From a virus, in IMG/VR virus record IMGVR_UViG_3300020477_000873, positions 1 through 29,981 of that record: a DNA stretch of 29,981 nt; one strand, 5' to 3'. Below, piece after piece: positions 1,081-29,472 of the stretch. Each line of letters begins with the position of its first letter. Within the stretch, counting starts at the first letter, position 1. The translations under genes and the position numbers were made by a program. The notes under the pieces are model-generated. The model was given only the letters and a program-made list of their open reading frames with translations, did not search any database and was not told the origin of the DNA.

Positions 1081-2337
1081 TTATATAATTAAATCTTCTA
1101 TAACTTTTCCACCGTCCACAATCTCTATAGGTCTGTCACCGGGAGCCATTAGCTCCTTGTCGGAAACTATACCAAGTCTGTCGTAAATGGTAGATGCCCA
1201 GTCTTCTATGTTGACTGGGTTTTCTTCTGGCTCACTAGCGGTTGCGTTGGATGTACCGTATGTCATCCCGCCTTTAATTCCACCGCCAGCAATAATTGTG
1301 CTGAATACTTTAGGCCAATGGTCTCTGCCAGCATTGGCGTTGATCTTTGGAGTTCGTCCAAACTCAGAAACAACACATACTAATGTGGAGTCAAGCATAC
1401 CTCTATCGCTTAAGTCCCCTATAAGTGTTGAGAAACCCTTGTCAAAAGCTGGCAACTGACTCCTCATGCTTCCTGCTATATTGTTGTGCATGTCCCAGCC
1501 ACCATACGTTAAGGTTACAAATCTAGTGCCAGCCTCTACTAGTCTTCTTGCTAGTATCATTCTGGCTCCAGCGGTATTTCTTCCGTACTTGTCTCGCAAC
1601 TGATCTGGTTCTTTATTGAGATCAAACGCCTCACTAGCTTTGACATCACCTATCAGGCTGTACGCTCTTTGGTAGAATGAGTTGACCGCATCAATAGAGT
1701 CTGCGGATTGCTTAGAGTTAAAGTCTGTATTAACTATATCAAGAACTCTTTGCCTACGGCTGAATCTCGGGGCAGGCACTGGAGTCTTTAGGTCGCGGAC
1801 TTGGAAATTTGAGCTAGCTGGATCAGAGCCTAAACCGAAACCTGCGTAAGAGCTGCTTAAGTAGCCTGTGCCAGCGTATTCGTTTGGCTGATTAGGTATG
1901 CATACATACGGTGGAAGGTTATGCCTAGGACCGAACTCATGTGAGACAACGGAACCCATAGATGGGTACTGAAGCGCTGGGCTGGGGCGATAACCCGTGA
2001 ACATGTTGTGTGTTCCACGCTCATGAGCAGCTTCTCCATGAGTCATGCTGCGGATAATTGATATCTTATCAGCAACCTTAGATGTATTAACAAGAAGCTC
2101 GCCAAGCCTAGTGCCGGGAACGTTAGTTTCAATACTACCTAAAGGTCCACGATACTCAAGGGGCGCAAACGGTTTTGGGTCTAGCGTCTCTTGGTGAGCC
2201 ATTCCTCCGGGCAAGTATATAAAGATTACACTCTTGGCTGGCCCCTCCTTGCTTTCATAAAACTTTTGATCACCTCTTGCAAAGGATATCCCCAATCCCC
2301 CCAAGACTCCTGCTTGTAAAAAAGATCTTCTTAGCAT
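1081..2337 (-). CDS. DUF1501 family protein with Tat signal
   Basis: A 418-residue protein, full length for DUF1501. The N-terminus has a twin-arginine motif (LRRSFLQAG, residues 2-10) and a hydrophobic stretch, so Tat export is expected. Family landmarks appear in order: PGGMAHQETLDPKP near residue 43, HGEAAHERGTHNMFTG near 100, YGGWDMHNN in the second half, and SEFGRTPKIN with GRDHW towards the C-terminus. The fold belongs to the alkaline phosphatase/sulfatase group. Most members have no tested activity, so calling it a sulfatase would go too far. The ATG follows the stop of the upstream DUF1501 gene by one base and its weak ribosome site (AAAGG) lies inside that gene, which implies coupled translation. 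Confidence 0.93.
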   Translation of the reverse strand: MLRRSFLQAGVLGGLGISFARGDQKFYESKEGPAKSVIFIYLPGGMAHQETLDPKPFAPLEYRGPLGSIETNVPGTRLGELLVNTSKVADKISIIRSMTHGEAAHERGTHNMFTGYRPSPALQYPSMGSVVSHEFGPRHNLPPYVCIPNQPNEYAGTGYLSSSYAGFGLGSDPASSNFQVRDLKTPVPAPRFSRRQRVLDIVNTDFNSKQSADSIDAVNSFYQRAYSLIGDVKASEAFDLNKEPDQLRDKYGRNTAGARMILARRLVEAGTRFVTLTYGGWDMHNNIAGSMRSQLPAFDKGFSTLIGDLSDRGMLDSTLVCVVSEFGRTPKINANAGRDHWPKVFSTIIAGGGIKGGMTYGTSNATASEPEENPVNIEDWASTIYDRLGIVSDKELMAPGDRPIEIVDGGKVIEDLII

Positions 2338-2338
2338 A

Positions 2339-3592
2339 TTATAATATAACCTTTCCTTCTCCCTCTAATAGGTATCTAGGCCTTCCGCCTTGATCTGTCC
2401 TCTGGATTTCCTTCGGAATACCGAAGTGATCAAACATAGTGGCCGCTAAATCAATAGGTGTTACCTTGGACTCTGTTGGGTAATAAGCTTTGTCTGATTT
2501 GCCGATAACCCTACCGTGGCTATACTTGCCTCCTGATAGCAGCATAGGGGTGATTGATGGCCAATGGTCTCTGCCAGCATTCTGGTTCAGTCTAGTTCTA
2601 CCAAACTCGCCGGTTACAACTAGCAAGATCTTTTCAGAAAGTCCGCTTTGATAGATGTCTTGCACAAATGCTGCAAGAGCTTTGTCGAGTGGTGGAACCC
2701 TGCCTTCAAGAGCCTTCTTGATATTTCCATGCATGTCCCAGCCACCATAGTGAACTGTTACAAACTTGGTTCCGAATTGAGCCAGCCTTCTAGCTAGTAG
2801 CATCTGATCACCAATACCACCCTTGCCATACATTTCACGCATAGATTCTGGCTCTTTGTCTAGGTCAAAAGCTTCTTTAGCATTTCCTAAAATAACGTTA
2901 TAGGCTTGGTTGCCAATCTTAGTAAACGAGGAGGCTTGAGCAGAAGCGTTTGGATCAAACAAGTCAAATGCAGCGAGTAAATCTTTACGCTCCTTGAATC
3001 TACCAACTTCAATCCTAGGCGTGAGGTTATCTTTATTGGACGGATCAAACGGCTTGTGCGCTCCACCTAAAAATGCAGGTTGCTCGCCCTCAATCTTGCC
3101 TTGCTTGACATATGCTGGCATGCCGTTTGTTGGATGGTTGGAACCAAACACTGCTGATACAACAGCACCGTGTCCGGGATACTCAGAGTTTGCAGTGTTC
3201 TCCCTCTTGGGGTTATGATGCCCTGTCATCATCCAGTGAGTTGCTTGGCGATGCGAGGAGTCTCCGTGTGAGAAGGAGTTTATTGCGGTGAGGTTGTCCC
3301 CTTGCTTGATTAACTCTTGAAAAAGGCCCCCAAAGGCAAGGCCATTAGTGTGGGTTACGGGGGAGGTTACCGGCTTGTATGGGTCTGGAACTGATTCAGT
3401 TGGGGCGTGGAAGGTTTCAAACTGTGTCGGACCACCTCCAAGCCAAACCCACACCACTGACTTGTCATTGTATGCAACATTCAAGTCTTCTTCTTGCGAA
3501 AAAGCAATGTCGGAAAAGGGGGTCATTCCTAATCCTGCGCCAATACCACCCACTCTAAGAAAATCTCTTCTGTTGAAACCTAGATCCAGCAT
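2339..3592 (-). CDS. DUF1501 family protein with Tat signal
   Basis: A 417-residue protein and first of three tandem DUF1501 genes in the direction of transcription. Residues 8-16 (NRRDFLRVG) are a twin-arginine signal followed by a Gly/Ala-rich hydrophobic segment. Core motifs are GGGPTQFETFH near residue 52, SHGDSSHRQATHWMMTGH near 108, YGGWDMHGN, and GEFGRTRLN followed by GRDHW. The start is set by AGGAGT six bases before the ATG. It lies 29 bases after the stop of the nuclease gene at 3622-4644, with no terminator between, so it appears to belong to the replication operon. The family is common in Planctomycetes and rare in phages. The function in this phage is unknown. Confidence 0.93.
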   Translation of the reverse strand: MLDLGFNRRDFLRVGGIGAGLGMTPFSDIAFSQEEDLNVAYNDKSVVWVWLGGGPTQFETFHAPTESVPDPYKPVTSPVTHTNGLAFGGLFQELIKQGDNLTAINSFSHGDSSHRQATHWMMTGHHNPKRENTANSEYPGHGAVVSAVFGSNHPTNGMPAYVKQGKIEGEQPAFLGGAHKPFDPSNKDNLTPRIEVGRFKERKDLLAAFDLFDPNASAQASSFTKIGNQAYNVILGNAKEAFDLDKEPESMREMYGKGGIGDQMLLARRLAQFGTKFVTVHYGGWDMHGNIKKALEGRVPPLDKALAAFVQDIYQSGLSEKILLVVTGEFGRTRLNQNAGRDHWPSITPMLLSGGKYSHGRVIGKSDKAYYPTESKVTPIDLAATMFDHFGIPKEIQRTDQGGRPRYLLEGEGKVIL

Positions 3593-16688: not shown

Positions 16689-17591
16689 CTATATGATCCT
16701 TGTGTTGAGCTTTCTAGGTTTAAATCCCTCATATCCACTAAAAGCCCAGCAATCTCCCTGACTGAGCATACGTTTTTCCACTACATCTGCGTCAATCCAA
16801 AAAGAACCTGTTGGCTGTTCTAGTCTTTTAGGGCCTGCGTTCCAGCTCCCCCAAGAATTCACACACAAAACTCCGGGTCTCTTGTATCCATCATCAATGC
16901 CTAACAAACACATTTGGTGCGCCCATTCTCCTTTGGGCTTGGCGAATCCTTCTGAGTCTCTTTGGGATGAAAAACCTTGGTTGCTTGCAACTGTTATTGC
17001 GTAACCGTTTGCTAGCAAATCTCTCGCCTGCTCATAAGTATCCACTCTAGATACAGTTTGGATAGGGTGTTGCTTTGATATATCTAACAAGGTTTTTGGT
17101 ACTCCCCCAGACGGTCTACCCCAGCTTTTAGCTTTAGATCCGCTGTAAGTTGTAAGGTCTACGTTTCCGTACTTGCCTCTGGGAATAGCTCCATATTCAT
17201 TGCAGTACCTAGCCGCCCATACACCATAAGCTCCATCTCCCCTTAATGTTCCGCCACCTATGATAACTCTACAGCCACCATATATATCCTCAGTTGCTGT
17301 TTCAGCTACCCACTCCTCAAACTCTTTGTTTATGTGTATATCCACACACTTAGCAGCATCTACTGCATACGCAGCACCCTGTGATACGCAATCTCCTATT
17401 GTTTGGATTCTGTTTGGGAATTTTCCAGCAACTCTCTTGATTATATCATATAAGAGTATGGTCTTACCTTTGCCGGAATCTTTAATAACGCCCCAAGAAT
17501 CTTTGAAAACTGGGTGGGGCAAGGACTTCATCGCTTCGTCAACACCCTGCTCGTCTCTAACCCAACCCCCTAAGTGAGATAGGTTTTTCAT
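16689..17591 (-). CDS. papain-like cysteine protease (C1 fold)
   Basis: A 300-residue protein with the papain catalytic set: Gln63 (oxyanion hole) and Cys68 in QTIGDC, His225 in GEWAHQM, and Asn245 in CVNSWG. Surrounding text (AAYAVD after the cysteine, LLGIDDGY after the histidine) matches the fold. The first 60 residues are not a normal inhibitory propeptide and no signal peptide is seen. It could process virion proteins, cut a host envelope target, or have an amidase-type activity on peptidoglycan peptides. The ATG overlaps the preceding stop by four bases. Neighbours are membrane proteins, which favours an envelope role. Confidence 0.85.
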   Translation of the reverse strand: MKNLSHLGGWVRDEQGVDEAMKSLPHPVFKDSWGVIKDSGKGKTILLYDIIKRVAGKFPNRIQTIGDCVSQGAAYAVDAAKCVDIHINKEFEEWVAETATEDIYGGCRVIIGGGTLRGDGAYGVWAARYCNEYGAIPRGKYGNVDLTTYSGSKAKSWGRPSGGVPKTLLDISKQHPIQTVSRVDTYEQARDLLANGYAITVASNQGFSSQRDSEGFAKPKGEWAHQMCLLGIDDGYKRPGVLCVNSWGSWNAGPKRLEQPTGSFWIDADVVEKRMLSQGDCWAFSGYEGFKPRKLNTRII

Positions 17592-18106
17592 AGCTTTACA
17601 GCTCCAGATAGGGACTCGAATATACCTTGAAACCAGTCTCGATCCTCTTGGCTGTCAAGTTTTCTGGGTTCATCATATCCAGACGCTACTAGGTAACTAG
17701 AAACAGCGTCTGTAAATTCGGGGTACCGCTCACGATCCCAACCATAAGAAGTCTGAACCCTAGCTAATATGGGATCAAACTGTGAGGTATTGTCTAGATT
17801 CTTTGCGTGCTTTAGATATTCAGCGGCACCTGATAGAAGTTTATATATTAGAATTTTGTCGTCTTCGTTTTCTATTTTGTTGAATTCGCTCTCAACAAAA
17901 GCTAAAGATTCAGCGACTTTATCCACCTCGACTTCGGCCTGTTCTTCACCACTATCTCCCCCCGTGTCAACAACTTGGTCAACAGTGGGGGGTGAAAGCG
18001 GTGGATGGGTGAACTCTGATACTTTCAGTGTTCCCAATACCAAAACCAAAGCCCAAGGGATTAAAGCAGCTAAACTTACCTTTGTATCCGATAGTTTAGC
18101 CATCAT
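17588..18106 (-). CDS. single-pass membrane protein with acidic and helical exterior
   Basis: A 172-residue protein with one N-terminal hydrophobic segment at about residues 10-29 (LAALIPWALVLVLGTLKV), a Pro-rich linker, an acidic stretch (EEQAEVEVDKVAE) and a helical C-terminal domain. It resembles a signal-anchored periplasmic protein, perhaps spanin-like in layout, but it lacks a lipobox and I cannot assign a family. AGGA lies seven bases before the ATG. It is coupled by a four-base overlap to the papain-like protease, so the two may act together at the envelope. Confidence 0.72.
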   Translation of the reverse strand: MMAKLSDTKVSLAALIPWALVLVLGTLKVSEFTHPPLSPPTVDQVVDTGGDSGEEQAEVEVDKVAESLAFVESEFNKIENEDDKILIYKLLSGAAEYLKHAKNLDNTSQFDPILARVQTSYGWDRERYPEFTDAVSSYLVASGYDEPRKLDSQEDRDWFQGIFESLSGAVKL

Positions 18107-18127
18107 TAATAGATCCTTTTTAATGGG

Positions 18128-18361
18128 TTATGCAGGCGTATCCGGCTGGTCTACAACATGGTTGTTCTTAGCCCACTTAACAGCAGCATCTAAGAGAATG
18201 CTAACGATTGGAACTACAACCATACTGGAAGCCCCAAGATCAAGTGAGGATAGGTTTCCTCCGATGTAGGTGAGGCCTGCGGCTAGTCCAACTAGTAAAC
18301 CGTTGATACCAACACGTCTGAGGTCGCCCAAGTTTAAACTAAAAGCTTTTGATGGTTCCAT
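18128..18361 (-). CDS. holin-like small membrane protein
   Basis: A 77-residue protein with two hydrophobic segments (about 18-35 and 46-62) and a charged C-terminus. This is a class II holin-like layout, though no family is recognised. The ATG at 18361-18359 is chosen because AAAGG lies eight bases upstream. An upstream codon 11 residues earlier would give an unneeded overlap with the PAS gene. If it is a holin, the papain-like protein two genes downstream would be a candidate lytic partner. It could equally be an exclusion or structural membrane protein. Confidence 0.65.
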   Translation of the reverse strand: MEPSKAFSLNLGDLRRVGINGLLVGLAAGLTYIGGNLSSLDLGASSMVVVPIVSILLDAAVKWAKNNHVVDQPDTPA

Positions 18362-18365
18362 TGAC

Positions 18366-18950
18366 TTAACCTTTCTGAGAAATTTCTGATACACTTATTA
18401 AGAAACCGCCTTGTTCGTCCTCGTTGAGTTTGTAGGGAAACCCTACTATTCTCACATCCATATCATCTGATGTTTTCGTTTCCTTATCTAATCTCCTGTT
18501 CATGCTCAGGCAAGAATTCAACTCATGTATGAACTCTTCCCTTTCGTCTTCGTGAACATATGTTATCCAGTCTCTACCCTCTAGATTATTTGTAGACTGA
18601 CCGGTTAATTCATTGAAAGATTCATTTGTCCAGACTAACCTTCCTGCATTATCTGTCTCGAAGAGCGCTGTGGAATTGTAGTGCAATGCGGCTTTAGACC
18701 TTTGCTCTATTATTTTTTGACTTTCTTCTATCCTACCACAAGTGTCTCCAAGTTTGCAGACAACATCCTTCAGGCTTCCACCACCATTCGTGGTTATCTC
18801 TTTCTTGATCGTATCTATAGATTCTGACAAATCTTCGTGTTTGTCTATAAATTTCAAAGTTGGTTTAACTACCTTAAAAAATATCCAAGAAAGAAAACCT
18901 CCCGCAAAGCTTAAGAGTGTTGTTGTTATTACTACGGTATCTGGCTCCAT
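18366..18950 (-). CDS. membrane-anchored PAS-domain protein
   Basis: A 194-residue protein with a membrane segment at about 6-28, a linker with coiled-coil features (35-85, including TNGGGSLKD) and a PAS domain at about 88-190 (ALFETDNAGRLVWTNESF, then LTGQSTNNLEGRDW and VHEDERE, typical PAS text). PAS domains sense small molecules, light, redox state or protein partners. There is no kinase, cyclase or other output domain, so signal would pass by protein contact, maybe to the adjacent holin-like protein. The ribosome site AAGGGG lies between the terminator's T tract and the ATG. Confidence 0.85.
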   Translation of the reverse strand: MEPDTVVITTTLLSFAGGFLSWIFFKVVKPTLKFIDKHEDLSESIDTIKKEITTNGGGSLKDVVCKLGDTCGRIEESQKIIEQRSKAALHYNSTALFETDNAGRLVWTNESFNELTGQSTNNLEGRDWITYVHEDEREEFIHELNSCLSMNRRLDKETKTSDDMDVRIVGFPYKLNEDEQGGFLISVSEISQKG

Positions 18951-18965
18951 GACCTACCCCTTCTG

Positions 18966-19001
18966 AAAAAAAACGAGAGTCCTCCCGGAGGAGGAACTCT
19001 C
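18966..19001 (-). terminator. strong rho-independent terminator
   Basis: On the minus strand GAGAGT, a bulged T and CCTCC pair with GGAGG and ACTCTC around a TCCG loop, followed by eight T (18973-18966). It lies 15 bases after the glycine-rich gene's stop and only 15 bases before the next ATG, so downstream genes probably rely on read-through. Confidence 0.92.
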
Positions 19002-19016
19002 TTTATGGTTGGTAGG

Positions 19017-19766
19017 TTAGTTGTCAGTGCCTTCTCTGATGTCTCTACGTTTGTAATCGGTCTGCTTTGGATTCTTGCCACCGAACATGTAAGTGAGTTC
19101 GCCGGGAATACCAAACTGTGCAGCGCCACTAGGAATAGCAGCATGATCAGTAGATGCAGATTGACTAATAGCGTTAGTGAAGTTAGATGCTGCGGTAGGC
19201 TCGCCACTAGCTCCAGAAATAGTTCTACCCGGAACACGGTCAGTACTTGGTACTGCCAACATATTGTATGTCATTGTTCCGTGGTTGTAGACGCTATCTA
19301 CATTATGAACGCCATCATAGGTCGTAGTGGAGCTGTGTTCTCTACCGGTGCTATTTAGAAGGCTGGAGCTGTCATTGTTGACTTTTCCAGCTCCGGTAGT
19401 TCCCGCAGCTCGAAGGAGGAAGTTTCTGTCACCAGCTCTAGCGTCTGGGAAGTAAGCGAGACCTCCAGTGCCACCGCTTTTTGCTTTTACGATACCGTCA
19501 GGATTGTCGGTTTTTTCATCGCCGTTAGCTCGATTGGTGGCCGTTTTTGCTACTACGATAGATCCGTAGTCATAGCTCTTAGCGCCATTAATGTCGTTGA
19601 CATCAATGTTTTTTGTGATCTTAGAAGCGTCTCCCATACCGCCGACGTTTCCACCCTTGACCATAGAACCGCCGTCATTTGTTACGGGTGCTCCGTCGTC
19701 AGATCCGACTCTGCCGCTGTTTCCGGTGATGACTCTGAAGTCACCTGATGCTGATTGTGTAGCCAT
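19017..19766 (-). CDS. glycine-rich protein, possible virion protein
   Basis: A 249-residue protein rich in Gly, Ser, Thr, Asn and Asp and free of Cys. It has no signal or membrane segment and no enzyme motif. The composition, the start MATQSASGDF and the end with KRRDIREG suggest a structural or surface protein, but I recognise no family. It stands as a probable single-gene unit: a TATAAT element 70 bases upstream, GGGAG seven bases before the ATG, and a strong terminator 15 bases after the stop. That pattern implies high, separately controlled expression, as for a major capsid-associated or decoration protein. Confidence 0.75.
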   Translation of the reverse strand: MATQSASGDFRVITGNSGRVGSDDGAPVTNDGGSMVKGGNVGGMGDASKITKNIDVNDINGAKSYDYGSIVVAKTATNRANGDEKTDNPDGIVKAKSGGTGGLAYFPDARAGDRNFLLRAAGTTGAGKVNNDSSSLLNSTGREHSSTTTYDGVHNVDSVYNHGTMTYNMLAVPSTDRVPGRTISGASGEPTAASNFTNAISQSASTDHAAIPSGAAQFGIPGELTYMFGGKNPKQTDYKRRDIREGTDN

Positions 19767-19838
19767 AATAGACTCCCTATATAAAAAGTTAGATGTTCAA
19801 ATTCCGGCTCCACAATTTATTCCTATTTTCCTAACATT

Positions 19839-19869
19839 ATTATACACCTTATTCCATACGTTTTGCCAA
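19839..19869 (-). promoter_or_regulatory. probable promoter of the glycine-rich gene
   Basis: Minus strand TATAAT at 19844-19839 with TG directly before it, and TTGGCA at 19869-19864 as a -35 (spacer 19, longer than usual). It overlaps the end of the sigma-factor gene and leaves a leader of about 70 bases. Confidence 0.5.
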
Positions 19870-20304
19870 TTGCTGTACGGATTTTTTCACTTTTCTTCGT
19901 ATTGTTTCTCTGTTGCAGCCATGCTTCTTGGCTATTTCCTTGATGGTCATGTTGTCCATTCTGTCTAGAATGAGGTCGCTGTTAGAACATTTGTCTATTT
20001 CGTCCATCAATTCTATGGAAAAAAAGTGATCTGATTCGTCTGGGAGATTGGAATGTAGAGGTTGGTGCTTTCTTTTGTTAAACTTAACCTCTCTTATGCA
20101 TTCTATCCTAACCCCGCTATAGAGGTAAGTTGTAAACTTAGAACCCTTCTTTTCATCCCAATTAGTAAATGCTTTCCAAAGAGCATTCAACTTACAGGTG
20201 TGGATCTCGTCGTCATTAAGTTGACTTCTGAAAGATCCAGCCGCCTTGTTCATTATATTTTGTATGTCCTGATTTTGCAAAGCTTCTTCAATTTGTTTAT
20301 CCAT
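19849..20304 (-). CDS. sigma-70-family factor (short, ECF-like)
   Basis: A 151-residue protein with a sigma region 2-like part (about 20-75, LNALWKAFTNWDEKKGSKFTT with YLYSGVRIECI) and a region 4-like helix-turn-helix at 118-146 (MTIKEIAKKHGCNRETIRRK). The pattern of Trp/Phe, a KGSKFTTYLY segment and a C-terminal HTH fits a minimal sigma factor without regions 1 and 3. It probably directs host RNA polymerase to phage promoters, perhaps the unit just downstream, whose probable promoter lies at the gene's own 3' end. AGGAG lies six bases before the ATG. Confidence 0.85.
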   Translation of the reverse strand: MDKQIEEALQNQDIQNIMNKAAGSFRSQLNDDEIHTCKLNALWKAFTNWDEKKGSKFTTYLYSGVRIECIREVKFNKRKHQPLHSNLPDESDHFFSIELMDEIDKCSNSDLILDRMDNMTIKEIAKKHGCNRETIRRKVKKSVQQLAKRME

Positions 20305-20318
20305 GATATCTCCTATGG

Positions 20319-20747
20319 TTATTTAAGTTTATTTTCAAGGTTTTTTCTCACGTTTTTAAAATCAAACATCCTTCCAACCCCTATAAAGAATCGGTATCTG
20401 CTTACTAACCTAAGAACCTCAATCCCCTCTGTCTCGTTCAGTTTTTTGAGAATTGAGGGTGTTATATCAAAGTTTGTGTGCCCCACCCAGCAATCAAAAT
20501 TAGATACTAGTGCTGCGTCTTGAGCAAACTCGTCTGATATTGGGATTATCGGCAGCATTAAGTCCTCTTCTTTAGAGTTACTGCCTTTTTCTTGATCAAA
20601 ATACGATTCTTCTTGGTTGTCGTCTGCTTGACTATATTGTTGTGCCTCGATGATTTGATTGAGAAAGATTCTCATCATAGGAGATTTGAGCTGGCGTTCC
20701 AGAACGTCTTCGTACTTCTGCCAGCCTATTTTTCGTTTACTTGTCAT
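20319..20747 (-). CDS. hypothetical protein before the sigma factor
   Basis: A 142-residue protein with a basic start (TSKRKIGWQKYED), an acidic and Gln/Ser-rich middle (45-65) and a more compact C-terminal part with helices (SILKKLNETEGIEVLRLVSR). No family is recognised. GGAG lies eight bases before the ATG. A TATAAT element just upstream may start transcription of this gene and the sigma factor. It could be a regulator or partner of the sigma factor by position only. Confidence 0.7.
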   Translation of the reverse strand: MTSKRKIGWQKYEDVLERQLKSPMMRIFLNQIIEAQQYSQADDNQEESYFDQEKGSNSKEEDLMLPIIPISDEFAQDAALVSNFDCWVGHTNFDITPSILKKLNETEGIEVLRLVSRYRFFIGVGRMFDFKNVRKNLENKLK

Positions 20748-20790: not shown

Positions 20791-21119
20791 GGTTCTTCTT
20801 TCAAAAATTCGTCTTCATTTATTTTACTGGCCAGCCTTATGGCTAGTTCTAGGAATATGTCCTCCTTCCCGCTGTCTAATAGTCCCTTTTTGGCAATCTC
20901 CAAAAGCTCTAAAAAAGAACCCTTGTCGTTAAGTGTTTCAATGAGTGTGAAGAAGTTGTTTACCGTAGATTCCTCATAATCCCTCATTTCCACATCTACA
21001 TAAACTTCTCCGTCCTCCTTAACATAATAAACAACGCATGCGTCTACTAAATCCTCCTTATGCCAATCGCTTTTCTGCTCTACTGGTTCAGGCTTTTTCT
21101 TCTTGAAAAAATTAAACAT
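20763..21119 (-). CDS. hypothetical acidic protein
   Basis: A 118-residue protein that starts with a basic patch (FNFFKKKKPEP) and continues as an acidic domain with strands (VVYYVKEDGEVYVDVEM) and helices rich in Leu (LLEIAKKGLLDSG). It has no Cys pairs, signal or membrane segment. The family is not recognised. GAGG precedes the ATG by nine bases and the gene overlaps the glycosyltransferase gene by eight bases, so it is translated together with the glycan island although it looks unrelated. Confidence 0.72.
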   Translation of the reverse strand: MFNFFKKKKPEPVEQKSDWHKEDLVDACVVYYVKEDGEVYVDVEMRDYEESTVNNFFTLIETLNDKGSFLELLEIAKKGLLDSGKEDIFLELAIRLASKINEDEFLKEEPCIRPSDVL

Positions 21120-22173
21120 TATTGATTACCTCTAATATTTTTCTAGCTGCATTTTCCCAAGTGTATTGATGGGCAGTTTCTATGCCAGCCTGATTTTTTT
21201 TCTTGTTCTTATGCACTTCCCTCATAGCTAGGGCTATTGATGATATTTCCTCATCGCCTATCTCAGCCCAGTTTCCGCACTTACCATGAAACCACTTGCC
21301 ATCATAGGCAAGTTCTCTGTTCTTTATCTGTACGAGTAGGGAGTTATCAGCGTTGCAGAATTCAGTGTGAGCTGAATAGTCTGTGGCTATTACCTGCTTT
21401 CCGCAAGACATCATCTCAAGAAGCTCAAGGTTCCAGCCCTCACCCCTTGATGGGAATACTCCGCAATCAGTTTGCGACATAATATTATACACCTCTTGCT
21501 GTGTCTCCTTCCTACCTATAAATTTTATTTTTTTAGAGAGGTTGGAGCGATTGTACAAGCTAATCCATTCGGATTGTTCAGATTGGCTATAAAATGGGTT
21601 ATCGCACATCATCCAGAGTTCAACATTGTCTTCTTCAGTGAAAGCTTCCTCAAATGCTTTGTATAGTATGTCATGACCCTTTCTTACTTCCCATTTACCA
21701 CAATTAAAAAAGATTGTCTTGTCTGTATGTTCTTTTTCCACATATTCAAATATGTCAGAGTCAACTCCTAGTGGTATGACATCAATTCTATCTTCATCAA
21801 AATCTATGTTACTTAGGCATACATCCTTTGCCCACTGGGAGCACACAAAGATTCTGTCGAGTGAGCTTAGGTGATGTTTTTCCAGATCGTTAAAGGCATC
21901 AAGTTCAAAAATGGGAAATCCTATTCTTATACCATGCCCCGCAAAACTAGACATGTCATGCTGATGCCAGATTTTTATTTGAGGTGCTTCAAAGACAGGC
22001 ATCTTGCTCATGGATATGAGTTCAGTTATGCAGCGAGCATCTTCTTCGTTGGTTACTGTTGGTTGACCTATTGGCCAAAGGGATACATCTGTAATCTGAC
22101 TTAGAGACTTGCATATATTAAGACCTGTGATCCCATAACCAAGTTGGTTGATAGGTGATATAATATTTATCAT
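21112..22173 (-). CDS. GT-B glycosyltransferase (GT4-like)
   Basis: A 353-residue sugar transferase with two Rossmann-like halves. The N-terminal part starts with a G-rich NQLGYGITGLN segment. The C-terminal part has CGKWEVRKG (158-166), a typical beta-strand and loop of family GT4, and RGEGWNLELLEMMSCG with the E-x7-E pair Glu245 and Glu253 that holds the nucleotide sugar. It would move a sugar from a nucleotide donor to an unknown acceptor. It is the last gene of the sugar island and overlaps the dehydrogenase-like gene by four bases (ATGA), which suggests shared use of one sugar nucleotide. Confidence 0.9.
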   Translation of the reverse strand: MINIISPINQLGYGITGLNICKSLSQITDVSLWPIGQPTVTNEEDARCITELISMSKMPVFEAPQIKIWHQHDMSSFAGHGIRIGFPIFELDAFNDLEKHHLSSLDRIFVCSQWAKDVCLSNIDFDEDRIDVIPLGVDSDIFEYVEKEHTDKTIFFNCGKWEVRKGHDILYKAFEEAFTEEDNVELWMMCDNPFYSQSEQSEWISLYNRSNLSKKIKFIGRKETQQEVYNIMSQTDCGVFPSRGEGWNLELLEMMSCGKQVIATDYSAHTEFCNADNSLLVQIKNRELAYDGKWFHGKCGNWAEIGDEEISSIALAMREVHKNKKKNQAGIETAHQYTWENAARKILEVINNV

Positions 22174-22988
22174 TGAACTGCCCTTCCTTTAAGTTTTTCC
22201 CAATCCCTCTCGGGTCTCACGTCTATATTTGTAGACCAAGCTCCCTCTAAGGTGTTTAAGTTTAGTCCCAACTTTTTTGCGAAGTGTATTATTCCATTTA
22301 AGTCTTTGGGAAAACAGCTACCGCCAAAGCCTAGTCTACCATCAGGGCCGGGAACGGCAAAGTGTGTGTTTCCGAGTCTATCATCGTAGGTGGCATACTC
22401 TATTACCTTATCGTAGTCTACCCCAACAGCATCACATAGCATACAGAACTCGTTAGCTATTGATACCTTTGCTGCCAAAAAACAGTTTGTCAGATATTTT
22501 ACAAACTCCGCTGTCTCTGATGTTGTCTGTACAATACTAGCTTTAGGAAAGACTTTGAGGTAGAACTGCTTCATTACCTTTGTTGCTGATGGAGTTCCAC
22601 CAAGAATGATTCTGCTGGTATTTTTGAAGTCTTCAGTAGCATTTCTCTCTAAGAGGAATTCAGGGTTGAAGACAACCCTTTGTTGATTTTCTGAGGAAAT
22701 TCTGGATGTCGTTCCCGGTGTTACGGTGGACTTAATAGCTACTATAGAGTTGGTGTCTATTTCTTTGCACACACTCTCAACTATTGATGTATCACACTCC
22801 CCATCTGGAGCCATAGGTGTGGGTACGCATACAAAAGTTATGTCGCATCCACTAGAAGCGTCAGATATACTACTGAACTCACCGTCCTTGAACTTGTCAT
22901 AAGTGTGGACATTGTAATGCTTTGAAAAAGCCTTCCTTAACGCAGTCCCAACAAACCCTTGTCCTATTATGCATACGTTACCTGTCAT
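22170..22988 (-). CDS. short UDP-glucose/GDP-mannose dehydrogenase-like protein
   Basis: A 272-residue member of the family that oxidises sugar nucleotides to uronic acids. The NAD-binding motif GQGFVG (9-14), the VPTP motif (55-58), Lys174 in LAAKVSIANE, and catalytic Cys225 in GFGGSCFPKD are present. Family enzymes are usually 420-450 residues long, with a C-terminal domain that completes the UDP-sugar site. That domain is missing and the gene ends cleanly with a stop, without frameshift. Short forms of this kind occur in phages. It could be active as an unusual dimer, act on another substrate, or have lost catalysis. Confidence 0.88.
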   Translation of the reverse strand: MTGNVCIIGQGFVGTALRKAFSKHYNVHTYDKFKDGEFSSISDASSGCDITFVCVPTPMAPDGECDTSIVESVCKEIDTNSIVAIKSTVTPGTTSRISSENQQRVVFNPEFLLERNATEDFKNTSRIILGGTPSATKVMKQFYLKVFPKASIVQTTSETAEFVKYLTNCFLAAKVSIANEFCMLCDAVGVDYDKVIEYATYDDRLGNTHFAVPGPDGRLGFGGSCFPKDLNGIIHFAKKLGLNLNTLEGAWSTNIDVRPERDWEKLKGRAVQ

Positions 22989-23708
22989 CTACTTATTCCA
23001 CTCCATTCTTATGGTTTTCCTTGCCTTGCTTCCGTATAATTCTTCCATAGCGGCCTCATTCTGCTCTCCATGAAACCCGAATGAGTTATAGGTTTCCAGT
23101 TCAAGCCTGTTGTAATATTTTTCTTCCCTAGCCCATTCAACAGAAAAGCTTAAAGCTGTTCTTGGGTCTGGAAAATTGATGCCCTTGGAAAGCATGTAGC
23201 TGAAGTGGTGGACGCATGAAAACCAGTCCTCTGGGACGGGTCTATCTGGGGGAAGTTGAGGTTCTTTATGTTGTTCGTTTGGGTTATACTTTTCAATTAG
23301 CTCCGAGGTTGCGTGTAAAAACTTCTGGCTCCGTAGGGAGAATCCTCCGTTGCCAACCCTGTTTTCCCAGCCATGCCCCCAAGCCGCACCTATATAATCA
23401 TAGTTAAGAAATTTGTCGTCCCATAGGTGTGGGTTTATGATAAAGCCGTCCCACTGTACTACCAAGCAGTGCTCTGTCGATACATAATCCTTAAGTTTGG
23501 ATAGGCAAAATCTGTTGTATCCTTCCTCGTCCATTTCTGGTATATCTATCACCTCTATGCCATCCAGCACCTCGTCGGTTGGGCATAATAATTTCTTTTC
23601 AGCAAAGTCAATACCCTCGCAGCATTTAACCATTGCCTTGAGAGCGTTGTTTGCCAGAGATCTTAAACCTGTTACTGATATGAGCGTAACCGTCTCTAGT
23701 TTTTTCAT
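22989..23708 (-). CDS. DUF5672 family glycosyltransferase-like protein
   Basis: About 239 residues. The landmarks VVQWDGFIINPHLWDD, YIGAAWGHG and RVGNGGFSLRS are those of DUF5672, a family of probable glycosyltransferases with a GT-A-like fold found in surface polysaccharide clusters and phages. A WFSCVHH segment follows in the second half. The ATG at 23708-23706 overlaps the preceding stop by four bases (ATGA), which decides it over a TTG two codons upstream. It lies between a GT-A enzyme and the dehydrogenase-like gene. Donor and acceptor are unknown. Confidence 0.85.
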   Translation of the reverse strand: MKKLETVTLISVTGLRSLANNALKAMVKCCEGIDFAEKKLLCPTDEVLDGIEVIDIPEMDEEGYNRFCLSKLKDYVSTEHCLVVQWDGFIINPHLWDDKFLNYDYIGAAWGHGWENRVGNGGFSLRSQKFLHATSELIEKYNPNEQHKEPQLPPDRPVPEDWFSCVHHFSYMLSKGINFPDPRTALSFSVEWAREEKYYNRLELETYNSFGFHGEQNEAAMEELYGSKARKTIRMEWNK

Positions 23709-24601
23709 TTGCAATACCTGTGTGTTGAATACGACGTTATCATTGATGGGTTAAGCAGTATACTGTATCCATTCTCAACCATCTGCTTATGTAAACAGGG
23801 GTGGTCACAATTTACAGTATATCCAGCACCCGGAGAATTGGCTGAGTACCTAAACTTCAAAAACGGCTCTCTCTTATATATAGCGAGGCCGTTAAAGTTT
23901 GAGTTGACAAGTAGAGGGGGTTCTCCCCTTACTGTTTTAAGGTGGTTGAATCCAGAGACCTCGTTAATCCTGAGATCAAAAACCTCTAGGGGTCGCATGG
24001 CCCAAGAGTCGAACATCATGTAGTATTGTTGCTCTACTTCCTCTAGACTCTTTGTGTTGGTGTACTCAGTGAGTATGCCGTAGGATGTAACACAGTCGGC
24101 AACTTCTAGATAAGCAAAAGAATTGAGAAAGCCTTCATAAGACCACCCGCCTTTAAGATCTAAATCTATAACAACCACATAGTCAAACTTATCAACATCT
24201 TCCATGGAAGATATATAATCCATATAGACATTGCGACATTCTGCCAGCTCTGTGGCCCGTATTAGTTGGTCTGGGTCGTCTTTTTCTCTGTAGTTTGAGG
24301 ACTCTCTTGAATTTGATATGAGATGCAGGTTGTCATCATCCACTGATAGCTCAGCAACCGTGTTGTCGGTAGAATCGTTTTCGTATATGACTATCCTGTG
24401 TTCTTTGAAGAACTCCGCAGTTTTATATATTCTTTCAAGGTTGAGTCTGGCAACAGGCTCTATGTTTCTGCATATACCACAAAATATAACAGAGCTTTCT
24501 TCACACAGCTCTTTTCCTTGGAGTACATACTTTTCGTATTGCTCAGAGTACTGCTCAGGTGCAGGAAAAAGATATTCAGGAAATCTCGTATCTATTAACA
24601 T
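23705..24601 (-). CDS. GT-A glycosyltransferase, CAP59-like, copy 1
   Basis: A 298-residue transferase: FCGICRNIE near residue 40, RIVIYENDSTDNT (69-81) for the nucleotide, and the metal-binding DLD at 146-148 in VVVIDLDLKGGW. The text resembles the CAP59/ANP1 group of sugar transferases rather than ordinary GT2. It is a clear paralogue of the gene at 25853-26770: both share the N-terminal RFPE-LFPA, CRNI, YENDS-D-T, IDLDL-GGWSY, NSLAY-like and SNFNGL segments, and an NPS-IT-YS end. The ATG overlaps the small unknown gene upstream by 26 bases. The ribosome site is at a long distance (about 12 bases). Confidence 0.85.
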   Translation of the reverse strand: MLIDTRFPEYLFPAPEQYSEQYEKYVLQGKELCEESSVIFCGICRNIEPVARLNLERIYKTAEFFKEHRIVIYENDSTDNTVAELSVDDDNLHLISNSRESSNYREKDDPDQLIRATELAECRNVYMDYISSMEDVDKFDYVVVIDLDLKGGWSYEGFLNSFAYLEVADCVTSYGILTEYTNTKSLEEVEQQYYMMFDSWAMRPLEVFDLRINEVSGFNHLKTVRGEPPLLVNSNFNGLAIYKREPFLKFRYSANSPGAGYTVNCDHPCLHKQMVENGYSILLNPSMITSYSTHRYCK

Positions 24602-24854
24602 ATATGGGTGTATTCCTTCCTACGTATGCAGATATAGTATTAAACTCTATCCACTCTACAGAGTCCTCGTATGTCATTCCGGCTTCCTTCATGCAGGCCT
24701 CGATCATTTTTTCGTAATCGTATACCACCCTTCCTGAATCATGGCCATCAGCAACGCCAATAATAGCACTGTCAAAGCCATCGGCAAAAAGAAGATCATT
24801 ACCAAAAACGTTAGAAAGGTGCTCTCTGACATCCTCGCTTGTTTGTCCATCCAT
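24576..24854 (-). CDS. small conserved phage protein, unknown
   Basis: A 92-residue acidic protein with ADGFDSAIIGVADG, RVVYDYEKMIEACMKEAGMTYEDS, then FNTISAYVGRNTPIYV. The pattern (VVYDY, then EWIEFN, then a GRNTP end) is one I associate with a widespread family of small proteins of unknown function in phage genomes. It has no signal, membrane segment or Cys pair. GAGG lies five bases before the ATG. Its place in the middle of the sugar island shows that this island is phage sequence and not a host contaminant. Confidence 0.75.
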   Translation of the reverse strand: MDGQTSEDVREHLSNVFGNDLLFADGFDSAIIGVADGHDSGRVVYDYEKMIEACMKEAGMTYEDSVEWIEFNTISAYVGRNTPIYVNRYEIS

Positions 24855-24866
24855 AAAGGCCTCACT

Positions 24867-25796
24867 TTAAACTCCAATATAATTTTCGTAAATAAGTCCA
24901 GCCAACGCTACGTCCTCTATAGCTAGGCCTGTCGAATCAAAAAAGCTGATTCCTGTTTCGTGGTCGAAACCAAGGGGTAATCCATTTTTAACAATATGAA
25001 ATAGATCCAGCATTGATTCCTTGTTTTCGCTATGCTGTGATTCACCAGAGTGAAAAGCTTGAACCTTATCGTCAACTACAAACAGTGAACACACGTTGGC
25101 CACATTGTCCTCAAACTCTTGTTTGCCTTCAGCGTCAGCTCCTATCGCGTTTACGTGCATGCCCGGCTCGATCCATGCAGCCTTAACGAAAGGTGATCTT
25201 GAAGGTGTTAGGGTTGTTAATATGTCACTACCCCTTACGCAATCTTCAATTGTATCACATACTTCGCAGTTGTCAACATTAATATTTGAACAAAGTTCGT
25301 TAGCTTTGTCTTTATCTAGGTCAAATAGTTTTATTGTCTTGATATTTCTAACATTACAGATAGCTTCAATTTGAAAGTTGGTCTGGAAACCGCAACCTAT
25401 GAATGCTGCCGTTTCAGCGTTACTATTAGACAGATACTTAGTAGCTACCGCTGTCACTGCCGCTGTGCGGTAGGAAGTGATCAGCATTCCATCCATAACT
25501 GCTAGTGGTCGTCCATTTTCTAGGCTATTGACTATTATAGTAGCAGATACGCTTGGGCCGTGTCCACGGGCACCATTTTGGGGGAACAGAGCCGCCCATT
25601 TAATCCCAGAATACTTCCCATGTCTGGCTGGCATTGCCCTGAAGTCGTTTCCTTCTAAACCCTCCTCTAGGTATATCTTAGGTACCATATCCCCTTTTTC
25701 GGGGTGCTTGAATACATCCTCCATTAGCTCTATAACTTGGGGCATGTGGAGATTGTCAGCGATTTCCTTTTCCGGTATAAAGATTGGGTTGGACAT
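24867..25796 (-). CDS. ornithine cyclodeaminase/mu-crystallin family protein
   Basis: A 309-residue NAD-dependent enzyme candidate. Key parts are a lysine in GIKWA (Lys66), the TSYRTAAVTAVATKYL segment (107-122, Arg110), the nucleotide-binding GCGFQ (134-138), and GADAEGKQE with Asp221, the residue that activates water in ornithine cyclodeaminase. The end holds FDSTGLAIEDVALA. Family members also act as alanine or ectoine-related dehydrogenases and in siderophore or non-protein amino acid synthesis, so the substrate is open. It is set between the two paralogous GT-A genes. GGAG lies six to seven bases before the ATG. This enzyme is very unusual in a phage. Confidence 0.9.
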   Translation of the reverse strand: MSNPIFIPEKEIADNLHMPQVIELMEDVFKHPEKGDMVPKIYLEEGLEGNDFRAMPARHGKYSGIKWAALFPQNGARGHGPSVSATIIVNSLENGRPLAVMDGMLITSYRTAAVTAVATKYLSNSNAETAAFIGCGFQTNFQIEAICNVRNIKTIKLFDLDKDKANELCSNINVDNCEVCDTIEDCVRGSDILTTLTPSRSPFVKAAWIEPGMHVNAIGADAEGKQEFEDNVANVCSLFVVDDKVQAFHSGESQHSENKESMLDLFHIVKNGLPLGFDHETGISFFDSTGLAIEDVALAGLIYENYIGV

Positions 25797-25837
25797 GTCT
25801 GGCTCCTTTTGTGGTTAGAGAAACTGTAAACCTCTTA

Positions 25838-25845
25838 ATTATACA
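25838..25845 (-). promoter_or_regulatory. possible -10 element before the cyclodeaminase-like gene
   Basis: Minus strand TGTATAAT in the 56-base gap after the copy 2 glycosyltransferase gene, about 42 bases before the ATG at 25796. No good -35 is seen. The same eight bases occur before the glycine-rich gene. Confidence 0.35.
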
Positions 25846-25852
25846 CTTTGAA

Positions 25853-26770
25853 TCAGACTTTGAGTGAGAATTCATGTGGAGAATATAACGTTATTAGAGA
25901 GGGATTCAAAAATATATCTTCGCCCCGCTTTCTCATTTCCCTGTGAAAATAGCTCCACTCGTTGGTTACGCTTCCATCTTTATTTTCCTCTGCCCCAAAC
26001 TGAACCCCCTTTATTGACTCAGGCCTGTATATCCCAAGACCGTTAAAGTTTGAGAAAACCCCTATTGGAGGATCTCCCCTTTCAAATCTATACAAATTAA
26101 CTATATCGCATATCTTTAGTTTTTCGTCACCATAATCCCTGTAAGCCCATGTGTCAAAAAATAGCCTTTCAACTTCAGAGAGTTCTTGGTCTGGAACACC
26201 TGCCAGTTTTCTTGTGATGGTTTTTTGCCTAAACTGTAGGCCGTTTGCGGTCATAGCACCCCACCCAAGATCACCATACGCTAATGAATTCATGATCCCG
26301 TCATAAGACCATCCACCAAGTAGGTCTAGATCTATCACAATTACAAAGTCTGGTTTATACGCAAGGGATTCTATGTACGTATGGCATTTATTTCTAAGGG
26401 AGGCTAGGTATTTAGGCCTCTCAACTTCCCTACCGCCAACGAAATGCTTGTGTCCTGTGTTTTCTTGAATTAATAAAAACTTGTCATCCTTTATTGAGTG
26501 GTTTAGTATTGATTCGGAAGTGCCATCTATTGAATCGTTTTCATATACGACAAATCTGTAGTCCCTAAAGAATGAGGCAGTGTGATACAATCTAGCTATG
26601 GTATGATCTAAGGTTCCTATTATGTTTCTACATAGTCCTGTTATTAGAATGTTGCACTTGGAAGCTACTTTCATTCCTGTTAGTAGAGACTTATTATAGC
26701 TTGAAACGTCAGAAGCTGGGAAAAGCTCTTCAGGAAAGCGTGAATATAATTTGTGTGTGTGTATATCCAT
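25853..26770 (-). CDS. GT-A glycosyltransferase, CAP59-like, copy 2
   Basis: A 305-residue paralogue of the gene at 23705-24601. It has ITGLCRNI (43-50), RFVVYENDSIDGT (72-84), the DLD metal motif at 147-149 (IVIDLDLLGGW), a GDPPIGVFSNFNGL segment and an NPSLITLYS end. The first residues (MDIHTHKLYSRFPEELFPA) give an N-terminal extension of five residues over copy 1. GGGGGAG lies just before the ATG. It probably adds a sugar to the same or a related acceptor as copy 1, and the divergence of the two suggests different donors or linkages. Confidence 0.85.
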   Translation of the reverse strand: MDIHTHKLYSRFPEELFPASDVSSYNKSLLTGMKVASKCNILITGLCRNIIGTLDHTIARLYHTASFFRDYRFVVYENDSIDGTSESILNHSIKDDKFLLIQENTGHKHFVGGREVERPKYLASLRNKCHTYIESLAYKPDFVIVIDLDLLGGWSYDGIMNSLAYGDLGWGAMTANGLQFRQKTITRKLAGVPDQELSEVERLFFDTWAYRDYGDEKLKICDIVNLYRFERGDPPIGVFSNFNGLGIYRPESIKGVQFGAEENKDGSVTNEWSYFHREMRKRGEDIFLNPSLITLYSPHEFSLKV

Positions 26771-26781
26771 TTCACTCCCCC

Positions 26782-28086
26782 TTATTCACATATCGGTAGT
26801 TGCATATTAAATTGTTCATCCATAGGTTCCCAAAATTTACTCACAAAGCACGAATCGCAGGCAGAGCATCTGAAAGATTCCCAACACACTACGGGTTCAG
26901 ACATCAGTGAGAAATTGTCGTCTAGTATATTTCCAACTGGTTTGTAGTGGGGTAGTGCGTGCCTGCCAAACATTTTTGATCTATCGACAGCGCTCATGCA
27001 GGTGTAAGCATCTCCAAAGCCATCTACATTTATACGCATACTACCCGCTGGGCAGAAAATGGGGAGCCTTGCTTTATCTGTACAGGGTTCTAGTTTAAGT
27101 GAGCAGTCGAGAGGTATTTCAACGGGTTCACAAAGAGGCCCGAAGTCCAGAGGGCTTAAAGGTTTTATATCTACTATTTGCTTGTAAAGATCAAGCTCCA
27201 TGCCGTCCTGATCCTCTTCTTCAAACACGGATACGTACTCATCCAGATTTAAGGTTATACCCCTATCTTTACAAAAATCTATTAGACCAGCTTCGTTCAC
27301 TATCTTTAGGTTGTCAGGATGTCTGACGAGTTCTATACCAAACTTTTCTGATCCGTACTTTTCAGTGTAATCCGCAACCTTCCTGATAAAGTCATCAACA
27401 TTGACCTGTGTGGGGTGAAGGCTTGCGTCTACGTCTACTCTGTTGGGGGGTAGTTCAGACCACTTGTCGAGATTAAAAGTCTTGCCGAAATTTGTTGTCA
27501 TGCGAAGTTCTATCTCAGGGTTTAGCATTTTTATTACGTCAACAAGACCTTTGTATAGGGTAGGCTCCCCTCCTGTGAAGTAAATTTCTTTGGGATTCAG
27601 TTTATTGAAAGATTCTGCCCACAATTCGGGTGTAAGCTTATTGTTTTTGGTATTTCTATAAATCTCATTGGCGGCTTCCTGCCAGCAGTACTGACACTTG
27701 TAATTGCATTTCCAAGTTAAAAACCACTGTATGTGTGGTTTTGCGTCAAGCATCGACTCGCTAACCTTAGATTTGTTTTTATCGTAATTATTCTTATCAA
27801 CTAGGTTGGATTCAGAGAGGTTTAAAAAATCTCCCTGTTGAGACCTGTTTACAATGGATACTATTTCAATCTGCGCGTCTTTTGGCTTCATTATCTCTAG
27901 TTTTAGTATACCCACAGAGGGGGTTTCATAGCTTATGGTTCTGGGGCTACCATACGTCACGCGAAATGTTTCTTCATGCTCTGAGGACAGCTCCTTGACT
28001 TTTATGTCGCAGACCTTGGGACTTGTTAAGTTGTAAACTATGTCTACATACTTGGACTTGAGATGTTGTGTAAATATTGTATTCAT
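26782..28086 (-). CDS. radical SAM enzyme with C-terminal Fe-S (SPASM-like) region
   Basis: A 434-residue enzyme. The 4Fe-4S site is CNYKCQYC with Cys127, Cys131 and Cys134, followed by YFTGGEPTL (169-177) for SAM. A C-terminal cluster (Cys401, Cys407, Cys410, Cys413) plus earlier cysteines in CPAG and TCMS fits an auxiliary-cluster (SPASM/Twitch-like) region used to bind peptide or sugar substrates. The first 115 residues form an unrecognised, strand-rich domain. It might modify a peptide or carbohydrate. No precursor peptide gene is evident next to it. The ATG overlaps the sulfotransferase stop by four bases. Confidence 0.9.
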   Translation of the reverse strand: MNTIFTQHLKSKYVDIVYNLTSPKVCDIKVKELSSEHEETFRVTYGSPRTISYETPSVGILKLEIMKPKDAQIEIVSIVNRSQQGDFLNLSESNLVDKNNYDKNKSKVSESMLDAKPHIQWFLTWKCNYKCQYCWQEAANEIYRNTKNNKLTPELWAESFNKLNPKEIYFTGGEPTLYKGLVDVIKMLNPEIELRMTTNFGKTFNLDKWSELPPNRVDVDASLHPTQVNVDDFIRKVADYTEKYGSEKFGIELVRHPDNLKIVNEAGLIDFCKDRGITLNLDEYVSVFEEEDQDGMELDLYKQIVDIKPLSPLDFGPLCEPVEIPLDCSLKLEPCTDKARLPIFCPAGSMRINVDGFGDAYTCMSAVDRSKMFGRHALPHYKPVGNILDDNFSLMSEPVVCWESFRCSACDSCFVSKFWEPMDEQFNMQLPICE

Positions 28087-28802
28087 GAAAAGGAGTATCC
28101 AAAAAATTCTATGTCTTCTTTACAAATGTTGTATACGGCTTCTATCATTTTCTCGTTGTAGTAATCTTTATAGTTCTTGTGCTTTGATTTGTTTGTGTGC
28201 TTTAGTGGCCTATAAGCAAGGCCGCATTTTTGAACCAAGTGCTTCCAGTGTGGCTTGTTAGGGTCTGTTAGATCTTCCTGTTTAAATATATCGTCTACCA
28301 AAAAGGGGATTTTTGGCAAGCCTTTCGATGTCCACCCTAAAGCATCTATTCCACGCCTTCTCTTCTTCATCATTAGGTCGCACAAATGTTCATCCGAGTC
28401 TCCGTATAAAAGCCACGAGTCTTTCATTTGAAAGTATATGTCTCTATGTGGTCGCGTCTCCATACCGCCCATCACCCACTCCTCAAAAGAGGAGAATTCT
28501 TTGTACCACTTAAAGTGGTCGTGGTAGCTGCGTTGTTGATGCCAGAAAAACCAAGATACGGCTCTGTCCCAAGGATTTCTGACAACTGAAAAGATATAAT
28601 CATATCCTTCAAGGTTGTCTGGTGGAATTACGCCGTCATCTCTTCCCATGACTATAGAGTTTAGTGATGGCTGTGGCGATTTAACCCACAAATTTCCATT
28701 TTTCCCCTGACAGGCCGCAGGGTTATGAGGGATCAAGCTCTCGGAAATGCTCGTCCCTGCACATTTTGGTATATGAATAAACAGAAAATTTGTTGTGCTC
28801 AT
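28083..28802 (-). CDS. sulfotransferase (Sulfotransfer_2-like)
   Basis: A 239-residue enzyme using PAPS. The 5'-phosphosulfate loop is HIPKCAGTS (residues 10-18) and the 3'-phosphate site is VVRNPWDRAVSWF (73-85, Arg75 and Ser83). The C-terminal part (KHKNYKDYYNEKMIEAVY, then IEFFGYSF) is typical of carbohydrate sulfotransferases of the 2-O type. It probably adds sulfate to a hydroxyl of a glycan, perhaps the one built by the neighbouring transferases. No PAPS synthesis genes are present, so the host must supply PAPS. No good ribosome site is close: AAGGA lies about 13 bases before the ATG. The 85-base gap upstream holds no clear promoter. Confidence 0.88.
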   Translation of the reverse strand: MSTTNFLFIHIPKCAGTSISESLIPHNPAACQGKNGNLWVKSPQPSLNSIVMGRDDGVIPPDNLEGYDYIFSVVRNPWDRAVSWFFWHQQRSYHDHFKWYKEFSSFEEWVMGGMETRPHRDIYFQMKDSWLLYGDSDEHLCDLMMKKRRRGIDALGWTSKGLPKIPFLVDDIFKQEDLTDPNKPHWKHLVQKCGLAYRPLKHTNKSKHKNYKDYYNEKMIEAVYNICKEDIEFFGYSFS

Positions 28803-28887
28803 AGTTTCTTGATGATTCCTTTTCTCAGTAGGTTGGAGATTATTTGTTTTTCACGCACTCTGTTGTGAGCTGTTGCGCGAAACTGAT

Positions 28888-29472
28888 CTAGCTATTTACT
28901 ATTTTTTTTGAATTATTAATTACCCCCTCAGTATCCCGGTTGAAGAAAAACCACCTCTCGTAGTGGCGCGGGTTATTGCTCTGATTGACGTAATGAAGAT
29001 ATACCATAAGATCATCCATTGAGTCAAAAATGTGCTCGTGTGGCAACATAAAAAACAGCCAGTTAGGAGCATTCTTCTTGCCCTGCTTGCAGTGGACTAA
29101 AATTGGCTTCTTCTGCCTGTTGGCTAAGGTTATCTCCTCGTAAGTTCCACACGCATGTACATCAAGATCAATGTGGGCTACGATGAAATCTGATATATCC
29201 ACACACCTAAGATCTACGGTTCTTATGACGCCATACTCCTGCTTAATTTTATCAAACTGTCCTGTTTCCTTGTAATGCTCCATCCAATATCTAGAGTCAT
29301 CGTCCTCGACCCCGACATCAATCGGTTTCTTGCAAGGGTTAAGGACAGTTACACCCATTTGCTCAAGGGTTGGGGTGATATTCTCTCTCCAACCTGAACC
29401 GGCGTCTGCAACGCGATCCATTGCTCCAACTAAATAGGTTCTGGTTCCATTAAGTCTGTTTATCGAATCCAT
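28888..29472 (-). CDS. nucleoside 2-deoxyribosyltransferase-like protein
   Basis: A 194-residue protein with the fold signature of this group: RTYLVGAMD at 11-19, a VTVLNPCKK strand, RYWMEHYKETGQFDKI, VDISDFIVAHID, and HACGTYEEI with Glu112 and Glu113 near where the catalytic glutamate sits. The family transfers deoxyribose between bases or cleaves nucleoside bonds. Several relatives act in base or nucleotide modification or signalling. The substrate cannot be named. GGAG lies eight to nine bases before the ATG, which overlaps the deaminase-like gene by 23 bases, so the two products probably act in one nucleotide pathway. Confidence 0.78.
   Translation of the reverse strand: MDSINRLNGTRTYLVGAMDRVADAGSGWRENITPTLEQMGVTVLNPCKKPIDVGVEDDDSRYWMEHYKETGQFDKIKQEYGVIRTVDLRCVDISDFIVAHIDLDVHACGTYEEITLANRQKKPILVHCKQGKKNAPNWLFFMLPHEHIFDSMDDLMVYLHYVNQSNNPRHYERWFFFNRDTEGVINNSKKIVNS

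Follow-up and report, generated by a model that had tools for sequence, protein, structure and literature searches.

In marine pelagimyophages, a hypervariable region is known that combines glycosyltransferases with a UDP-glucose 6-dehydrogenase and cassettes of radical SAM genes (PMC7029224). In mycobacteriophages, phage glycosyltransferases act on the particle and thereby glycosylate the virion (Freeman et al. 2023, cited in PMC12619734). Here, we describe a glycosyltransferase-rich island in a 29,981-base IMG/VR virus record (IMGVR_UViG_3300020477_000873), which at its full length is the window of this study and stems from an uncultured large-phage lineage. Its minus strand encodes, within positions 21112-28802, all eight enzymes that a first-pass annotation had read as one directional set: a sulfotransferase (ST), a radical SAM protein (rSAM), two GT-A glycosyltransferases (GTA1 and GTA2), a cyclodeaminase-family protein (OCD), DUF5672, a short UDP-sugar dehydrogenase (UGD) and a GT-B glycosyltransferase (GTB). 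A further parallel is chlorovirus PBCV-1, whose capsid glycan is reportedly built in the cytoplasm by virus-encoded soluble glycosyltransferases and sugar-nucleotide enzymes. PBCV-1 is a eukaryotic virus, unlike the window phage, and the likeness is one of described enzyme type and place of action.

In the papers searched, no description of the same gene combination was found. This agrees with the first-pass remark that no phage system with the exact set was known, but the island is a variant of a phage hypervariable or glycan-locus type already known. Like the host-recognition hypervariable region of pelagimyophages (PMC7029224), it is rich in glycosyltransferases, has a UDP-glucose 6-dehydrogenase nearby and carries radical SAM cassettes that vary between close relatives, and its content is likewise exchanged between close phages. 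The pelagimyophage region goes together with tail-fibre genes, and no fixed anchor glycosyltransferase has been described for it (PMC7029224), whereas the window's slot sits between nucleotide-metabolism-like genes and GTB. No tail-fibre genes were recognised in the window; the conserved left flank of the slot is a nucleoside 2-deoxyribosyltransferase-like gene (NDT, 28888-29472, minus strand; PF15891 at 25.8 bits, under the cut-off of 30) and the other flank is GTB-g30-g29-g28. With the mycobacteriophages the window phage shares phage-encoded glycosyltransferases, while glycosylation of its particle is a proposal; UGD, a sulfotransferase, radical SAM and a swappable cassette go unmentioned for the mycobacteriophages in PMC12619734.

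The island is transcribed in the order ST, rSAM, GTA1, OCD, g35, GTA2, DUF5672, UGD and GTB. The coupling of several genes by ATGA overlaps, as previously proposed, could be read directly in the sequence for ST/rSAM, GTA2/DUF5672 and UGD/GTB, and DUF5672 and UGD abut (TAGATG). GTB, the conserved anchor of the locus, had 246 relatives among the IMG/VR pattern hits, which dereplicated to 78 loci; g30 comes next after GTB in 61 of these and is usually followed by g29-g28-g27-g26. Both NDT and GTB were visible in 40 loci. Here, the slot was empty in 14, with GTB overlapping or abutting NDT, and held GTA2 alone in 11, DUF5672 alone in two, one other gene in one and several genes in 12. Since the slot thus contains no, one or many genes, the window island is an enlarged form of a site that recurs among these phages. 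The NDT-side slot is also empty in a 153-kb relative (contig G001:C7; L206, G001:C7:63901-83900). As a separate observation, this relative has a second island of ~20 mostly sugar-related genes just ahead of its structural genes (DUF5672 assigned by BLAST, the others by eye).

The half of the island next to GTB is conserved. The order GTA1-OCD-(g35)-(GTA2)-DUF5672-UGD-GTB was found again in L111/L003, whose flanks are 95-97% identical to the window in nucleotides, as well as in L112/L004 and L096, with protein identities over this half of 45-74% and 42-70%, respectively. In L096, GTA2 is missing and g35 is relocated. Between the window and L111, the ratio of nonsynonymous to synonymous substitution rates (dN/dS) was 0 for UGD (zero amino-acid changes at a dS of 0.107), 0.029 for OCD, 0.083 for DUF5672, 0.094 for GTB and 0.26 for GTA2. 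With values far below 1 for UGD, OCD, DUF5672 and GTB, the genes of the conserved half are judged to be working enzymes under purifying selection, not debris.

The other half is exchangeable. Identity to L111 stops at window position 25860, just upstream of OCD, and restarts at 28940 inside NDT, so that the 3.08 kb with ST, rSAM and GTA1 (25861-28939) give way to a different 3.4-kb sequence in L111/L003, while the flanks on the two sides remain 97.3% and 95.4% identical. The L111 replacement encodes a Methyltransf_24 methyltransferase, a radical SAM/SPASM protein, a GTA1 of 59% identity and another GT-like protein (assigned by eye; zero Pfam matches). Upstream of GTB, L016 carries a CMP-sugar cytidylyltransferase, a GT29 enzyme and a 51% identical orthologue of the window's rSAM; L096 a sulfotransferase-like gene; and L126 a GT61 enzyme with a HAD/nucleotidyltransferase. 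At the same place, L114 has a sulfotransferase-like gene beside a cassette (L114:2477-6725) of PEP mutase/cytidylyltransferase, a split TPP decarboxylase-like enzyme, Fe-ADH and LicD, which is likely a phage phosphonate-decoration pathway. Apparent PEP-mutase homologues in L005, L085, L095, L167 and L175 were rejected, the match being confined to the cytidylyltransferase domain, which leaves L114 as the only true phosphonate cassette. Altogether, the locus has three types of radical SAM protein, and most slot genes of recognisable family are predicted glycan enzymes. Judging from these sequence comparisons, ST and rSAM are part of an exchangeable module. The co-occurrence in relatives on which the first-pass annotation had made its grouping depend is thus partial: most relatives carry zero or one gene of the exact set, yet at one genomic slot and not scattered, and OCD, UGD, DUF5672 and GTA1 stay with GTB across divergent phages.

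Each enzyme could be assigned to a family. ST (28083-28802) matches PF03567 with 28.9 bits (cut-off 22) and phrog_3347 galactose-3-O-sulfotransferase with an E-value of 7e-19. In rSAM (26782-28086; PF04055, 40.4 vs a cut-off of 29.5), the CxxxCxxC motif and C345, C363, C401, C407 and C410 are invariant in three orthologues, and these five C-terminal cysteines would fit an auxiliary Fe-S cluster. An assignment of rSAM as a prokaryotic viperin (antiviral) was rejected, as its 48.9 bits fall short of the equivalog cut-off of 180 and the match covers the radical SAM core only. In L004 (902-1930), a radical SAM gene is broken up into two parts, a core of 251 aa and a cysteine-rich open reading frame of 89 aa, by frameshift or as a genuine split. 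GTA1 (25853-26770) is a paralogue of the CAP59/GT69-like GTA2 (23705-24601; PF11735/CAP59, 30.1 vs 28.8) with 36% identity, and D147/D149 of its DLD motif are invariant. DUF5672 (22989-23708; PF18922, 84.1 bits) most likely starts at the ATG at 23708, not at the TTG at 23714. Its AlphaFold2 model reached a predicted local distance difference test score (pLDDT) of 82.9, and its Foldseek matches in the PDB, with E-values of 2e-8 to 1e-4, include a GT31-type chondroitin synthase as well as GT6 and GT8 enzymes; by this predicted fold, it is the third GT-A glycosyltransferase of the island. GTB (21112-22173) is of the GT4 type, with PF13692 and PF00534 over cut-off. The small phage protein g35 (24576-24854; phrog_13182, E 2e-22), although inside the set, is probably not an enzyme of the pathway.

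UGD (22170-22988) is a two-domain UDP-sugar 6-dehydrogenase (PF03721 and PF00984; TIGR03026, 198.6 vs 189.8). It contains the NAD-binding and central domains, retains the catalytic Cys225 in GGSCFPKD and stops after the central domain, without the C-terminal UDP-binding domain. At least 552 confirmed relatives share this architecture in phages, and the homologues in 66 dereplicated viral loci are nearly all 262-300 aa long. In 23 of these 66, an SDR-type gene (sugar epimerase/dehydratase-like, by eye) neighbours the short UGD, which supports UDP-glucuronate chemistry.

OCD (24867-25796) belongs to the alanine dehydrogenase/ornithine cyclodeaminase family (PF02423, E 9e-74, 248.7 bits vs a cut-off of 24). 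Its best PDB match is the archaeal alanine dehydrogenase 1omo, whole-length with an E-value of 8e-74, and K41/R52/D219 align to K40/R53/D221 of that enzyme; its score nevertheless misses every NCBIfam equivalog cut-off, that for alanine dehydrogenase by far (221.6 vs 409.15). The presumed cyclodeaminase therefore appears to resemble more closely an alanine dehydrogenase/imine reductase. In other phages, OCD adjoins a ribonucleotide reductase (L005) or, as read by eye, an exonuclease (L097, L098, L101), GDP-mannose-dehydratase-like genes (L099-L106) or amino-acid-catabolism-like genes (L007, L108), and in other phages it occurs without the window's glycan set. Given such varied neighbours, any part of OCD in the glycan is putative. 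The suggestion that the glycan is decorated with amino acids was not upheld, and that of a glycan-building set was, with sulfation plausible. Ahead of OCD, we observed in L007 (3447-10912) a phage cassette of aldehyde dehydrogenase, amidinotransferase-like and class-III aminotransferase genes (by eye), possibly for arginine/ornithine or lysine catabolism; a cassette like it adjoins the short UGD in L215, L220 and L221. On a 142-kb phage contig (L108:10001-10897), an OCD-family gene lies beside pyridoxal phosphate decarboxylase-like and proline-dehydrogenase-like genes (by eye).

Gene set and order, slot, swap, purifying selection, enzyme families and the predicted GT-A fold of DUF5672 were established directly, and they make it very probable that the island fills the variable part of a modular locus for glycan assembly. 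For substrates, products, step order, acceptor and purpose, we propose the following. GTB would be the fixed enzyme, and the NDT-GTB slot would be stocked with differing glycosyltransferases and tailoring enzymes in each phage. UGD would convert UDP-glucose to UDP-glucuronate, and GTA1, GTA2, DUF5672 and GTB would assemble a short glycan, which ST would sulfate. rSAM may alter a sugar by epimerisation, dehydrogenation or deoxygenation, and OCD may provide a building block derived from an imine or amine, or else serve host amino-acid metabolism. Exchange of the half with ST, rSAM and GTA1 would give the glycan a different outer chemistry, comparable to bacterial serotype loci; even near-identical phages differ in the chemistry they encode, which suggests that their surface coat can be altered. 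The best explanation as a whole, a modular glycan locus making an acidic, sulfated surface glycan, stands in our estimate evenly between right and wrong. Several points weigh against it. The usual UDP-binding domain is missing from UGD, the AlphaFold2 model of rSAM has a pLDDT of 50.8, the link of ST, rSAM and OCD to the sugar steps is putative, and the island shares its strand with replication genes. Moreover, soluble glycosyltransferases may equally use host lipid-linked intermediates, and no acceptor was identified.

As acceptor, we favour a virion protein glycosylated in the cytoplasm, a plausible assignment that falls somewhat short of probable. The slot showed no recognisable gene for an initiating transferase, a flippase or a polymerase, and the island proteins have no convincing transmembrane segments, which favours a cytoplasmic acceptor, be it virion protein or DNA, over a new envelope polymer. 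A weak hint for virion modification comes from the above 153-kb relative (L209:11517-13622), in which a sulfotransferase homologue 22% identical to ST lies on the structural-gene strand together with methyltransferase- and GT-like genes (by eye). A more far-reaching version, which we regard as possible but less likely than not, is a serotype-like locus with one conserved GT-B enzyme, in which exchangeable cassettes for sulfation, radical-SAM sugar editing, CMP-sugar/GT29, phosphonate/LicD and methylation would re-dress the virion with different charged glycans.

The same modular locus might instead act on the host envelope (LPS-type, capsule or S-layer glycan), so that the altered surface of the infected cell excludes competing phages or stops progeny from re-adsorbing; we consider this a serious possibility, though not the likelier outcome. 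LicD and CMP-sugar/GT29 genes are typical of cell-surface glycans, and such cassettes are present in the sister loci. The lack of membrane proteins and of the initiating, flipping and polymerising functions in the slot speaks against it. It is the reading preferred by the pelagimyophage study authors for a similar gene mix (PMC7029224).

Hypermodification of phage DNA, with bases glycosylated and further decorated to block restriction, appears improbable. The slot lies on the replication-gene strand and is flanked by nucleotide-metabolism-like genes (NDT and a dCMP-deaminase-like gene), and a UDP-glucose dehydrogenase is also encoded by Bacillus phage SP-15, which reportedly has phosphoglucuronated DNA. 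On the other hand, PF00303 (thymidylate synthase/dNMP hydroxymethylase) was absent from all 16 records examined from the lineage and its neighbours (many of 100-174 kb, some fragments), flavin-dependent ThyX-like genes being seen in its place (by eye), and DNA is not known to carry sulfated, methylated, phosphonate or GT29 decorations; both points lower this reading. Equally hard to sustain is the view that auxiliary genes gathered by chance at a hotspot for insertions, where OCD would belong to amino-acid metabolism and neither it nor rSAM would have to do with the sugar genes. In its favour, ST and the window-type rSAM adjoin OCD, UGD or DUF5672 in no other phage, save the same phage in a metagenome-assembled genome (MAG), and GTB lies ~8 kb from OCD in L005 and ~7 kb downstream of UGD in L115, but membership and order of the GTB-side half are kept at 42-74% protein identity, genes overlap and are under purifying selection, and the recognisable slot contents are mostly glycan enzymes.

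The rest of the window encodes DnaB, primase, UvsX, exonuclease, ribonucleotide reductase, a dNMP kinase and a sigma-factor-like gene. Behind GTB, the block g23-g29 (16689-20747) is kept across dozens of loci and largely nameless, with g28 sigma-like, g27 Ser/Thr-rich, g26 a PAS-domain protein and g23 papain-like (g23 by eye). Among cultured phages, GTB had no close relative and just two weak partial matches (24-28%), g23 had no match, and no close relative of GTA1 or ST was found. Single-protein viral scans with GTA1 and with rSAM gave zero matches, and a pair alignment of rSAM against bacterial genomes matched the window's own phage and one further contig of phage type, the remaining matches being distant radical SAM cores. 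The window's own phage is found in MAG OSU_TB57, filed as SAR202 (Chloroflexota), in which a contig (L189, VFHP01000013.1) shares 13 kb with the window at 99.99% identity. Because a second, related phage, the 153-kb contig G001:C7, shares this bin, and the bin's sole DUF1501 gene outside these two contigs is distant, SAR202 as host is only a lead, and the contigs may be mis-binned. At the left end of the window (3-3592) lie three tandem DUF1501 genes with Tat-type starts (one called by Pfam scan, the other two by homology), a family typical of Planctomycetes-like bacteria. The related phage L201 has three as well, one 83% identical to the window's.

Taken together, what began as an unusual list of genes can now be tested as a locus in which a fixed slot and a conserved anchor enzyme are combined with interchangeable modules. 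It occurs across many metagenomes and has no close relatives in culture. It also indicates DUF5672 as a GT-A glycosyltransferase family and the two-domain UDP-sugar dehydrogenase as very common in phages. If the glycan coats virions, these phages would exchange their surface chemistry much as bacteria do with capsules, with consequences, if true, for receptor mimicry, host range and the survival of particles.

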